DNA of 64,000 nt, from contig JAJXZT010000028.1 in the NCBI GenBank assembly GCA_021779935.1, positions 1 through 64,000 on the forward strand. Reading direction: 5' to 3'. The notes below the pieces were generated by a model that was given only the letters and a program-made list of their open reading frames with translations, was not told the origin of the DNA and made no database searches. Position numbers and translations under genes: made by a program. Origin of the DNA: Acidobacteriota bacterium (lineage in GTDB: Bacteria; Acidobacteriota; Terriglobia; Terriglobales; Acidobacteriaceae). Shown in pieces: positions 33,587 through 36,883 of the stretch (positions are counted from its first letter, which is position 1; each line of letters opens with the position of its first letter).

Positions 33587-33865
33587 ATGCTCTTCTCAAA
33601 AGAATATGTGGGCTACCTGGCCCGGCAACTTGTTGTGAGGCTCGAAAAGAACGGCATGATTGCGACCGAAAATGCCGCCGCCGTCAGCGAACGTGTCAAC
33701 GCCGCGCTGGTGGACGAATTGAGCCTCGAAGATCGCATCAACGATGAAGTGCGCATCATTCTGGAAGCCTACTCGGAAGAGATGCAGCGCAGCGGCGCCA
33801 ACTACCAGGAGATGTTCAAGAAGGTAAAGAACGAACTGGTGCGCAAATACAAGGCGGTGCTATGA
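33587..33865 (+). CDS. DUF507 family protein, first copy
   Basis: 92-residue helical protein of the DUF507 family, function unknown. It begins MLFSKEYVGYLARQLVVRL and has IINDEV-like RINDEVRIILEAYSEEM and a charged tail with YQEMFKKVKNELVRKYK. It overlaps the second DUF507 gene by 4 bp, so the two are almost surely made together, perhaps as a heteromer. It forms an operon upstream of the integrative element. Confidence 0.85.
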   Translation: MLFSKEYVGYLARQLVVRLEKNGMIATENAAAVSERVNAALVDELSLEDRINDEVRIILEAYSEEMQRSGANYQEMFKKVKNELVRKYKAVL

Positions 33866-34137
33866 GAATTACGCGCGACAAAGTCAATAAGCTCGCCGCC
33901 CTTTCCACCGAGGCACTGGCTAATTGCCCCGAGGTCGAGTTCAAGGAAGCCTACGACGACGTGCGCCAGGAACTGCGCCGCGTTCTCGAAGGCCTCTTCG
34001 TGGAAGAAGAAGCGCTCGACAAGGCCGCCCGCCAGAAGATCGAAAGCCAGCGCCGCATCATTACAGAAGGCACGCCCGAGTGGGACATCCTCTACCGCAA
34101 GTATTACGCCGAGGAAGTCAAAAAGCTGGGAATATAG
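33862..34137 (+). CDS. DUF507 family protein, second copy; integration target
   Basis: 91-residue paralogue of the gene just upstream. It starts MRITRDKVNKLAALSTEAL and ends EEVKKLGI. The last 33 bp including the TAG stop (34105-34137) are the left direct repeat of the integrative element, so the integration event leaves the reading frame complete. Function of DUF507 is unknown. Using the 3' end of a small protein gene, rather than a tRNA, is unusual for a tyrosine recombinase target. Confidence 0.85.
   Translation: MRITRDKVNKLAALSTEALANCPEVEFKEAYDDVRQELRRVLEGLFVEEEALDKAARQKIESQRRIITEGTPEWDILYRKYYAEEVKKLGI
34105..34137 (+). repeat. attL: left 33-bp direct repeat
   Basis: 33 bp identical to 36851-36883. 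It starts TACGCCGAGG and ends GGGAATATAG, including the DUF507 stop codon. Flanking bases differ on both sides (T versus C before; GGG versus TTC after), which defines the repeat exactly. Confidence 0.9.
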
Positions 34138-34158
34138 GGCCCGAAAGGGTTTAGCAGT

Positions 34159-34245
34159 GGTGTCCACTCAAGTGGATGTTCACTTTTAGCATAGGTGTCC
34201 ATGAACTGGACACCTATTTTCTTTGGTGTCCCTCGCATGGACACC
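34159..34245. promoter_or_regulatory. Cluster of GGTGTCC/GGACACC inverted repeats at the left end
   Basis: A single GGTGTCC lies at 34159-34165. TAGGTGTCC (34192-34200) pairs with GGACACCTA (34208-34216) around 7 nt, and GGTGTCC (34225-34231) pairs with GGACACC (34239-34245) around 7 nt. The two full repeats are centred 31 bp apart. Both are followed by TTTT runs on the plus strand. They could be recombinase arm sites, operators or terminators for the DUF507 operon. Confidence 0.6.
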
Positions 34246-34269
34246 TTTTCGTTCCGAAGCGGGAATTTC

Positions 34270-35009
34270 TCAAAGGCATACCAGCAGGGGAGGGGGGTGG
34301 GGTGGTATAGCTCAGAGTGAAGCAGTGGCGAGGGAGGGGCGCGGCCCGGAGCGGAAGTCAAAGGGGGAGCGACCCGCCGCGCCGGGCGCCCGGAGCGCGA
34401 ACAGCGCGGAGGGACGGCGCGGCGTGGGAGCGGAGGACATGGAGCGCAGGGCCGCGCCCCGGACGCACCACGGGCCACCACAGCACCTTCGCCGTTGCCT
34501 TTGGTGTTGCCGTTGCCGTTGCCTTTCCAGCTACCCTTTCCCAACCTACTCCCCCGCTCCGCACCCACGGCACCGGCAACACGCTGGACACCGCGCCCCG
34601 GAGCAACGGCCCCGCGTACATCTCAGCCGTTGCGTAGGGGCGCTTGTGGCGCGCCAGCGCCACCAACCAAAGGGGGTGCCGCAAGGCACCCCTATGGGTG
34701 CGCCGTGCGTGGGGGGACCCGGATGGCGTGGCCCGAAGGGGCGCGACAGAGGAGCGCCCGGCGCGGGCGGGGACCCGCGACGGCCCGCCAGACGGGAGGA
34801 CCCACGCGGAAGGCGCACGGTAAAGGGTGGGAAGCGGGGGAGCGGAGGGACGCAAGCGGCGAAGCCGCGTAAATGCGGCCCGACTTCCTTTTCGTTTTTG
34901 GTGTCCAGTGGCAGCGAGGGTGGCAGGGGCAAAAAGGTAGCCCCGGAAGCACGGCGCGTGACGCAGCAGTATCGCGGCGCGCGACGTGATCCGGGGCGGA
35001 CCCGCGCAA
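34270..35009 (+). ncRNA. Candidate large structured RNA, or structured non-coding DNA
   Basis: About 740 bp, very GC-rich, G-rich on the plus strand, with no credible gene; the open frames give Arg/Pro/Ala-rich low-complexity products. Perfect arms include 34278-34283 with 34303-34308, the palindrome CCGGGCGCCCGG (34382-34393), and GTGGCGC/GCGCCAC (34646-34663). GGGGTGCC-GCAA-GGCACCCC (34673-34692) is closed by a GNRA-type loop in the plus orientation. A long-range helix joins 34698-34713 with 34801-34818 (7+7 bp). Within it are GGGCGC/GCGCCC (34739-34759) and GCGGGC/GCCCGC (34763-34788). Strand and boundaries are inferred. Confidence 0.4.
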
Positions 35010-35171
35010 CTACGCAGGGTCGCTATGGGGTGGTGCAAACAGCGCCCCCTCTGGCGCGGGTGATTCAACTACAGCGGGGACCGGGAGCAAGTCTAACACC
35101 CGACGCAAGGCCGCAACATCGGCCTCCGCTTTGGCGAGCAACAGGGTGATGGCGATACGAGGATCATTCAC
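35010..35171 (-). CDS. Tiny ORF 4 of the integrative element (53 aa)
   Basis: GTG start at 35171 overlaps the previous stop by 4 bp (GTGA). The product reads as one hydrophobic helix region (ITLLLAKAEADVAALRRVLD) followed by a Pro/Ala-rich tail. No family recognised. It is supported only by the overlap pattern of the small-gene string and by a weak AAAGG upstream. It could be a chance frame. Confidence 0.35.
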   Translation of the reverse strand: MNDPRIAITLLLAKAEADVAALRRVLDLLPVPAVVESPAPEGALFAPPHSDPA

Positions 35172-35401
35172 CGGCGAACAACCTTTCTCCGCGACGTGGC
35201 GCGGCGTGAATAGCGAGCGTGAAGGGCAGAGAGTGTGCCACGAAGAGATTCCATGCACCAGCCCTTTTGCTGGAGCAGGGCGGTGCGAGTGGTGGAATCT
35301 CCGTCGAGCAAGCGTAGCTCCGAGTTCAAGGCCCGGAGCGTGGCGAGATCATCATGCAGAGCTTCCCGCAGGTTGCGAAGTGGAGCTTGAGAAGTGGACA
35401 C
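35168..35401 (-). CDS. Tiny ORF 3 of the integrative element (77 aa)
   Basis: GTG 35401 follows the previous TAG with no gap, and a GGAGG lies 9 nt upstream. The 77 residues include a helical stretch (LREALHDDLATLRALNSELRLL) and a basic C-terminus (RYSRRATSRRKVVRR), which would suit nucleic-acid binding. No family recognised. Its start region contains one GGACACC heptamer (35396-35402). Confidence 0.45.
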   Translation of the reverse strand: MSTSQAPLRNLREALHDDLATLRALNSELRLLDGDSTTRTALLQQKGWCMESLRGTLSALHARYSRRATSRRKVVRR

Positions 35402-35617
35402 CTAGCGAATCCTCCGTTCGGGTTGTGGTGGCTTACGGCGAGGCAACGGCGCGGCTTTCTTGAAGCTGCCCATCGCAATTTGTAGGCCGTAGAGCACCGT
35501 GTTGATTTCATCGGGGTACTGTCGCAGTTCCCCGCGTAGGTGAGCGTTCACCGCATCACGAGCGGCGCGGCGCACGTCATCCGGCGTGTCGAGTTCAGGC
35601 AGTTGGAATTCGCGCAT
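35402..35617 (-). CDS. Tiny ORF 2 of the integrative element (71 aa)
   Basis: ATG 35617 has a strong GGAGG 6 nt upstream, which selects this start over the longer TTG frame at 35749. The 71 residues begin MREFQLPELDTPDDVRRAAR and are mostly helical, ending in a Pro/Arg-rich basic tail (PRRKPPQPERRIR). It could be a recombination-directionality or DNA-binding factor, but that is a guess from size and position after the recombinase. Confidence 0.5.
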   Translation of the reverse strand: MREFQLPELDTPDDVRRAARDAVNAHLRGELRQYPDEINTVLYGLQIAMGSFKKAAPLPRRKPPQPERRIR

Positions 35618-35753
35618 CGTTGCCTCCAGAGAATGGCAAACGGCCAGCAGCTGCGAATTCGTTGCGGGCGTCAGCCTCAGCCTTCCACCGGGGGAGGCCC
35701 GCGTCGAATTCCTTGATGGCCGCACGTTCGTTGTATTCATAAGTGTCAATCAT
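35595..35753 (-). CDS. Tiny ORF 1 of the integrative element (52 aa)
   Basis: ATG 35753 overlaps the recombinase stop by 8 bp, so it could be translated by coupling. The 52 residues start MIDTYEYNERAAIKEFDAG and look like ordinary soluble protein (PRWKAEADARNEFAAAG). No family recognised. It overlaps ORF 2 by 23 bp in another frame. Confidence 0.45.
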   Translation of the reverse strand: MIDTYEYNERAAIKEFDAGLPRWKAEADARNEFAAAGRLPFSGGNDARIPTA

Positions 35754-36788
35754 TCGCGGCCCCAGTCGGCTCAAAGCGTTCGAGGACGGAAGCGGCATAC
35801 GCCTCCGCTCTGGAGGCCGTGCGGTCGAGAGCAGCAGCGATGGTTTCAGGGTTGAGTTTGTGCACGTCGCGTTCGAGGTAATTGAGCGTGACGCGCAGAC
35901 TGTCGTGACCGAGTAGGGCTTGGACGACGCGAAGGTCGTGCGTAGTGTCGTAAGTAGCCACAGCCATGGTGCGCCGCAGGTCGTGGAGACGGAGGCCCGG
36001 AGGCGCACCGACACGCTTGCAGAGTTCCACGAACTGCCGACGCAACGCGGCGTAGCCGAGTTCCCGACCGGCGAGCAGCGAGACAAGCGGGCCATCACCG
36101 GAGGGAACAAACATGAGCATGGCCGCGAGCCGACCGGAGGCCGGGACGGTCTGCACCTTGCCGTGTTTGCCGCGAATGCTGAGAACGCGATCCACGGGGT
36201 CGTATTCGCGGTGAGTGAGACTCAGCGCCGCTTTCGCGCGTAAGGCCGCGTCATGGCACAAGAGCAACATGAGTTGCAGATGTGCGGGCGCGGCGGCCAG
36301 CATCCGAGTGAAAAGCGGTGACGGCACCGTGACCGGGCGCGGCGATGGACGCGGCACGAACGGCACAAGCGTGTCGAGCCCGCGTGGAGCACCGGCCAAG
36401 TGCAGGTGACGCAGTAGCCGCCTCAGCGCGTGGTACGTCGCGTAACGGGTGTGCGCCGCCCAGCCTTTCGCGCCGAGCCTTTGGACGATGGCCGAGACAT
36501 CTTCCGCGCTGAGTTCTTCCGGGCACTTGGAGCCCGCCCGCGCAATGACCGCTTTAACGGCGACGTACCGTTGACGGGCGTGGCCGCGCGACGAACACGC
36601 CGATTCGGGGCCGAGCAGTCGCGCGATAGTGGTAGCCCCAAGGCTTTTTTTGACCGTTGCCTCTTTGCTTGTTGCTGGGAGGCCGCCTGAAATTCGGCGG
36701 CGGCTTCGGGAGTTGCAAAGGCGCGGCGATGGCGGTTGCCGTCTACGTCGCGCCAGTCAGCGAAGTATTTGTTGCCTCTCTGAAACAT
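35746..36788 (-). CDS. int: Tyrosine recombinase (integrase) read through a -1 frameshift
   Basis: Site-specific recombinase of the lambda-integrase family that should integrate and excise this element. Frame 1 from ATG 36788 gives 48 residues, an arm/N-terminal part MFQRGNKYFADWRDVDGN. At the A7 tract (36645-36651) a -1 shift joins the second frame, giving about 347 residues, the usual size. The core-binding helices follow (KCPEELSAEDVSAIVQRLGA). Catalytic residues are all present, in fused numbering: Arg184, Lys near 208-211, His269 and Arg272 (HDLRRTM), His295 (LLGHDS) and Tyr304 (LNYL). Either a programmed frameshift, or a frameshift mutation or sequence error. Confidence 0.75.
36645..36651 (-). 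promoter_or_regulatory. A7 slippery heptamer in the integrase
   Basis: On the minus strand the codons TCA AAA AAA GCC give A_AAA_AAA in the exact phase (X XXY YYZ) for a -1 ribosomal slip. Slipping one base back joins the N-terminal frame to the catalytic frame without a stop in either part. Confidence 0.55.
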
Positions 36789-36813
36789 GGTGTCCTTTCG
36801 TAAGGTGGACACC
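36789..36813 (-). promoter_or_regulatory. Inverted repeat over the integrase ribosome binding site
   Basis: GGTGTCC (36789-36795) and GGACACC (36807-36813) with 11 nt between. On the mRNA the second arm (GGACACC) directly precedes the integrase ATG and includes its AAAGGA ribosome-binding purines. A hairpin could hide the site, or a protein bound to the repeat could repress the gene. Confidence 0.5.
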
Positions 36814-36850
36814 CTGCTATTTTTCGGGCCTTTTTTGCTGGTTGACATCC

Positions 36851-36883
36851 TACGCCGAGGAAGTCAAAAAGCTGGGAATATAG
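36851..36883 (+). repeat. attR: right 33-bp direct repeat
   Basis: Exact copy of 34105-34137. It carries the last codons and stop of the DUF507 reading frame without the rest of the gene. Confidence 0.9.

Follow-up and report, generated by a model that had tools for sequence, protein, structure and literature searches.

The window analysed here is a stretch of 64,000 nucleotides (nt) from an Acidobacteriota bacterium (GCA_021779935.1, contig JAJXZT010000028.1; a 4.49-Mb draft assembly in 72 contigs), and it carries a candidate integrative element that encodes a tyrosine recombinase and adjoins a DUF507 gene at its 3′ end. The element is bounded by a perfect direct repeat of 33 bp on the forward strand. 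Its copies at 34105–34137 and 36851–36883 are spaced by 2746 bp and enclose a Phage_integrase domain (PF00589, 35746–36399, E = 6e-14) together with tiny open reading frames (ORFs). A query with positions 34105–34165 against the whole draft genome returned two matches at E ≤ 0.001, which are the two repeat copies, and the runner-up direct-repeat families in the 4-kb region reach 24 nt at 71–75% and 22 nt at 77%. The target gene has its 3′ end in the left copy, which encodes the last residues and the stop codon and leaves the C-terminal half of DUF507 (33862–34137, forward strand; PF04368, E = 3e-14) intact. The right copy, the second attachment-site copy, is followed by queG. An earlier note on this DNA had described both the perfect repeat around a recombinase and the left copy as the genuine gene end with the host gene kept whole, and both descriptions hold. 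DUF507 as a whole (33587–34137) consists of two overlapping ORFs that correspond to halves of the Pfam model, with an ATGA-type overlap, rather than of a single gene.

For comparison of this locus, 60 related genomes were drawn. The order DUF507–queG without an insert was found in 6 of 29 DUF507 loci, mostly with a spacing of at most about 0.2 kb (about 0.6 kb in locus L025), and the other 23 had no queG match within at most 1.5 kb on each side. Since the 3′ coding end of DUF507 is recognisably alike in these relatives, the left repeat copy represents the original gene end and an insert-free arrangement exists. Direct repeats of which one is the end of a target gene, as they are seen here, are indicative of an integrative element.

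The reading frame of the recombinase, which lies on the reverse strand, is broken. The N-domain (36645–36788) is read in the zero frame, which is +1 relative to the catalytic frame and extends from an ATG at 36788 to a stop at 36423, with a further in-frame ATG at 36848. The core-binding and catalytic domains (35746–36645, PF00589) follow in the −1 frame, which ends at 35746. Where the two frames overlap, the sequence TCA_AAA_AAA_G at 36651 contains a run of seven A, and the slippery heptamer A_AAA_AAA occupies positions 36645–36651 of the reverse strand, followed by G. The N-domain gives a weak PHROG match to integrases (E = 0.024) and is presumed, by analogy, to be arm-binding. In the catalytic frame of the window, ATG, GTG or TTG, the start codons counted throughout, occur neither upstream of the profile match nor in its first 30 codons. 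The residues that we take to be catalytic (R, K, H..R, H, Y) are invariant in 7/7 aligned members, and the catalytic profile matches XerA, XerC-like, XerD and phage integrase chains; by these features the recombinase can be assigned to the tyrosine site-specific recombinase (integrase) family. The earlier note had stressed the choice of target and had missed the −1 frame break, whose conservation, described below, we consider the more striking.

A catalytic-domain profile built from seven members (A1) was used for genome searches at E ≤ 1e-32, with a score of at least 135 bits for members; the best other integrases in 396 genomes of the phylum reached about 105 bits. In the host family it identified 31 places, spread over 27 of 398 genomes. 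Among 399 genomes drawn from the class, 21 gave a match, and 8 genomes belonging to a second family contributed 9 places. The frame was examined in 39 loci: 31 in a first set (30 of the 31 host-family places, without a second identical tandem copy, and in addition L047 from the second family) and 8 further second-family loci in a second set. An N-domain was found in 37 of the 39, window included, and 36 of these 37 have it in a frame that is +1 with respect to the catalytic domain. The break has the same sense in 8/8 loci of the second set, which were fetched after the pattern had been noticed. The exception is L122, where N-domain and profile match share one frame and the stretch between them, judged by eye, is in another. 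Two loci were dropped: L120, with an in-frame TGA and no N-domain found, and L123, whose contig begins within the gene. One of the 36, L200, has an in-frame TAG in its catalytic part. In a tree with 25 outgroups, the 37 recombinases of the family are monophyletic (support 0.83), and in 4/5 outgroup loci inspected by eye (L056, L057, L058, L060) a similar N-domain is read in a single frame. The simplest history is a frameshift that arose once and was then kept. Judged from these sequences, a family of elements about the size of insertion sequences (IS) occurs within one bacterial class, in two of its host families. The proposal that the element belongs to a separate class of small integrative elements is borne out as far as a related family with recombinases in one clade is concerned; as an interpretation of the whole, it is partly supported. 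Three further loci were rejected: L042, the lone match in a Genome Taxonomy Database (GTDB) contig (27% over 63 residues), as a generic recombinase, and L049 and L050 as XerC/D-like by eye, each with one continuous frame.

Near the end of the N-domain, a heptamer of the form X_XXY_YYZ is in phase in 21/28 loci, compared with 7/28 and 3/28 for the other phases, and shuffling of codons gave a mean of 4.0 and a maximum of 10 in-phase heptamers in 500 shuffles. The second set has such a heptamer in 7/8 loci, and the commonest forms are A_AAA_AAA and C_CCA_AAA. At or upstream of the domain match, the catalytic frame lacks a start codon in 21/29 loci and in 5/8 of the second set. For 14 of those 21, window included, none occurs within the first 30 codons either, and 7 have one there. 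Between 5 and 45 nt past the heptamer, the predicted fold is stronger than in shuffled sequences (mean z −1.61, n = 21; 14/21 below −1), whereas three control stretches (a 3-nt shift, upstream and further downstream) gave mean z values of 0.02 to 0.15. A Shine-Dalgarno (SD)-like motif lies 6–18 nt upstream of the heptamer in 14/21 loci, a figure without a control. According to PMC4066793, stimulatory structures generally begin 5–8 nt downstream. The overlap between the two frames and its in-phase slippery site are conserved, and from these features we infer −1 frameshifting in the recombinase.

The broken frame could also be explained in other ways. The recombinase might be a pseudogene, or the break an error of assembly or of homopolymer reading, in which case the element would be a dead relic. 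The draft state of the assembly, the position of the break inside a run of seven A and the four loci that are otherwise broken or incomplete (L120, L122, L123 and L200 out of 39) would fit this, but the same −1 relation recurs in many genomes, the sites are often not long A-runs (CCCAAAA, GGGAAAA, CCCAAAC) and the catalytic residues are invariant in the seven aligned members; this explanation is strongly disfavoured and we regard it as extremely improbable. Transcriptional slippage, instead of ribosomal frameshifting, could also restore the frame, as the window and several relatives contain seven consecutive A. We consider this very unlikely, given that many members have CCCAAAA, with a short A-run only, and that some loci have a downstream fold or an SD-like sequence like those of ribosomal sites. 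Finally, the two frames could be two overlapping genes, one for a small Xis-like DNA-binding protein and one for a recombinase that lacks this domain and is started by reinitiation within the first gene. The zero-frame product alone would indeed contain a complete small domain, and L124 and L128 have catalytic-frame starts with an SD-like sequence, in addition to the loci with some upstream start. However, the absence of starts from most loci, the strong enrichment of in-phase slippery heptamers and the outgroups with a similar domain fused in frame make this arrangement very unlikely as well.

Of the 29 first-set loci with an N-domain, 15 could be given a flanking repeat pair. The pairs are spaced by 2746–4643 bp (median 3340), and one repeat copy precedes the N-domain by 26–131 bp. 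No pair was assigned in the remaining 14, in some because the contig ends. The next-best repeat alignments score at most 13, except for a third repeat copy in L083, and the assignments are weaker in L081 (15 bp), L125 (17), L047 and L048 (18 each) and L113 (39 with mismatches). A repeat pair in L114, 4775 bp apart and about 200 bp from the N-domain, was not counted as bounding an element. The targets of the 15 bounded elements are the 3′ ends of protein genes in 8 cases (DUF507, rlmD, gyrB, prolyl oligopeptidase, a gamma-carbonic-anhydrase-like gene, pcrA/uvrD helicase, cydB, and queC with a distance of 27 bp between its stop and the repeat), gene starts in 2 (trpG and PEP carboxylase) and tRNA genes in 3; 2 were unassigned (L048, L081). 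In seven 3′-end cases that were checked, the gene keeps an open end, and in 5/7 the last residues differ from those of the joined flanks, which indicates that the element supplies the gene end. The protein-gene 3′ end emphasised by the earlier note is therefore a frequent target (8/15) next to tRNA genes and gene starts. Its suggestion that absence of the 33-bp repeat from other insertions would refute the element was too strict, since members have their own targets and repeats and this repeat need not recur elsewhere. In L083 (7201–14275), two identical 3527-bp copies lie in tandem at the trpG start and share a 21-bp core. The tandem copies contain, in an assembly, the expected circle junction; unless it is an assembly artefact, the arrangement is suggestive of a circle that integrated beside a resident copy.

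The heptamer GGTGTCC or its complement GGACACC occurs 10 times in the element of the window, compared with 0.49 expected, and 19 times in the whole window, which confirms the heptamer set of the earlier note. Five sites form a cluster at the left end (34159–34245) and are candidate arm sites, and two adjoin the recombinase ATG (36789–36813) as candidate arm or operator sites. Five other elements contain 6, 6, 5, 5 and 3 sites, mostly at their ends, with 0.4–0.7 expected, and a site lies at most 130 nt upstream of the N-domain in 16/29 loci; in the window it abuts the ATG. From their position at the ends and over the recombinase start, these repeats look like arm or operator sites.

Overall, we read the 2746-bp unit as an IS-sized, site-specific integrative element at the 3′ end of a host gene, with an integrase under −1 programmed frameshift control, and give this reading a probability of about 0.83. 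Its boundaries, family, conserved frame break, slippery sites and site clusters are supported by the comparisons above. Several observations weigh against it. The strict in-phase heptamer is missing in 7/28 loci and in 1/8 of the second set, and the catalytic frame does have a start codon upstream of its domain in 8/29 loci and within 30 codons in 7 of the other 21. The stretch used for the fold was picked after the fact: 60 nt from 4 nt past the heptamer give a mean z of −0.35 (n = 22), and the effect is sensitive to placement, as a shift of 3 nt gives z 0.02. The window's own stretch (z −0.4) is not stronger than shuffles, and the second set (n = 7) has a mean z of −0.64 with 2/7 below −1. 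With two or fewer sites in 9/15 bounded elements, GGTGTCC sites are not universal. Among 29 trpG loci related to the L083 target, none has an integrase and none shares the other neighbour of L083, so that a joined empty trpG site was not seen. A search with a tRNA-Met site gave a match in 61/62 genomes of the genus, mostly of the tRNA sequence itself, with flanks too diverged for a join. As for the empty DUF507 site that the earlier note had expected in relatives, none of the 60 genomes drawn is of the same genus, and the evidence therefore consists of the gene order in 6/29 loci.

In the proposed mechanism, a lambda-type tyrosine recombinase would integrate the element site-specifically at the 3′ end of a host gene and keep this gene whole. 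A −1 programmed ribosomal frameshift would take place between the N-domain and the core-binding and catalytic domains. Ribosomes that do not shift would produce a short basic protein consisting of the N-domain only (121 aa from the ATG at 36788), and those that shift would produce the full integrase of, by count, about 347 aa. The N-domain is likely to target the GGTGTCC sites, which lie at either end of the element and over the start of the recombinase gene. The short product would thus probably repress the gene and/or compete at, or steer, the recombination sites, a role suggested by the location of the sites and by analogy to IS1 and IS3, as the short products of such elements act as repressors or competitors. 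The element is probably still mobile. More tentatively, the family could represent a distinct IS-sized class in which a single frameshifted gene yields the integrase as well as a free arm-binding protein, the latter being repressor and directionality factor in place of a separate Xis, with the conserved hairpin-rich noncoding region as an origin or transfer site; we regard this extension as possible but doubtful.

The noncoding region is GC-rich and contains a long imperfect inverted repeat (34325–34471). The structured DNA reported earlier is real insofar as GC-rich inverted repeats exist and parts of the region match relatives. Positions 34332–34454 match the noncoding region of L083 (67% over 124 columns) and positions 34948–35005 that of L113 (80% over 65 columns), although GC-richness may inflate such matches. 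A GTCAAGG (or GTAAAGG)...CCTTGAC hairpin was found in 6/15 bounded elements; the window has the right arm only. As a conserved long hairpin it is present in L081 (4753–4861), L125 (4835–4939), L126 (5500–5612) and L113 (5430–5543). In an alignment of four copies, 11/27 predicted pairs are changed on both sides, the copies having been chosen partly by folding. The window and six related loci gave no Rfam match at the gathering score.

On the reverse strand downstream of the recombinase, the window contains two small ORFs with homologues according to phmmer searches against seven chosen ORFs: one of 71 aa (35402–35617; homologue in L110, 17.4 bits) and one of 77 aa (35168–35401; homologues in L109 and L110, 20.5 bits). 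A further possible ORF of 53 aa with a GTG start (35010–35171, reverse strand) resembles an ORF of L109/L110 by eye only. An ORF that overlaps the recombinase stop with a shift of one base was picked in 21/26 loci by a script that prefers near starts. One version of it, a family of about 120 aa (gene 2) downstream of the recombinase, is encoded in L118 (6376–6759) and 16 other loci and was aligned in these 17. For one member, neither Pfam nor PHROGs gave a match. Gene 2 is predicted to be a four-helix protein with a predicted local distance difference test (pLDDT) score of 84, and the predicted fold had no match at E ≤ 0.001. Two sequence matches below 1e-3 in the PDB, to designed repeat proteins over about 40 residues, were judged to be driven by composition. 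No ORF of the window scored significantly against the gene 2 profile. In L125, the ORF at 2096–2437, numbered along the element in the orientation of int, encodes a small protein with a weak similarity to sigma-70 region 4 (PF08281, E = 1e-5, slightly below the curated threshold). Among the proteins scanned, a sample of the small ORFs, no Pfam or PHROG match to relaxase or conjugation genes, no match to genes for packaging or the hijacking of helper phages and no recognisable structural or replication genes were found.

Programmed frameshifting is a classical control of several insertion-sequence transposases. If it is conserved in a clade of tyrosine integrases, the same type of control would have arisen in a different enzyme class, and the family would allow a direct test of integration control in a very small element without a recognised excision factor. 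Annotation pipelines may label such integrases as pseudogenes, and the elements are therefore easily overlooked. Single-protein searches of viral contigs, which detect close relatives only, gave no confirmed relative of the integrases of the window, L111 and L117 or of L118 gene 2. Phage and plasmid records contained distant integrases only, in 22 and 3 records respectively, with less than 80% of the query covered in each; L118 gene 2 had no match there. By title and abstract start of the papers listed, in a search with subscription journals mostly outside its scope, no report of programmed frameshifting in a tyrosine integrase was found, the nearest case being FseA. The word 'integrase' is absent from the accessible main text of PMC5009743 (first 300,000 characters), PMC3711429, PMC4066793 and PMC10885494.

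The family resembles lambda-type integrases and their elements, such as phages, integrative and conjugative elements (ICEs) and integrative and mobilizable elements (IMEs), in its conserved catalytic residues, its extra N-domain, its direct-repeat attachment sites in gene ends and its candidate arm sites at both ends. It differs from them in its size of 2.7–4.6 kb, in an integrase spread over two frames and in that transfer, structural and replication genes were unrecognised in the scanned proteins. With IS1 and IS3 it has in common a small size and, in the proposed mechanism, a DNA-binding short product next to a frameshifted full enzyme. Compared with −1 frameshifting in such elements (PMC4066793), the slippery heptamer, the upstream SD-like motif and a possible downstream structure are further similarities. 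Unlike IS1 and IS3, however, the family would use a tyrosine recombinase rather than a DDE transposase, and its integration would be site-specific with target-derived repeats. In the Mesorhizobium symbiosis ICE, the regulator FseA is made by a programmed frameshift of msi172–msi171, according to PMC5882170. There, too, a programmed frameshift controls an integrative element, but the frameshift acts in a regulator of excision-factor transcription, whereas in the family described here it would act in the integrase itself.

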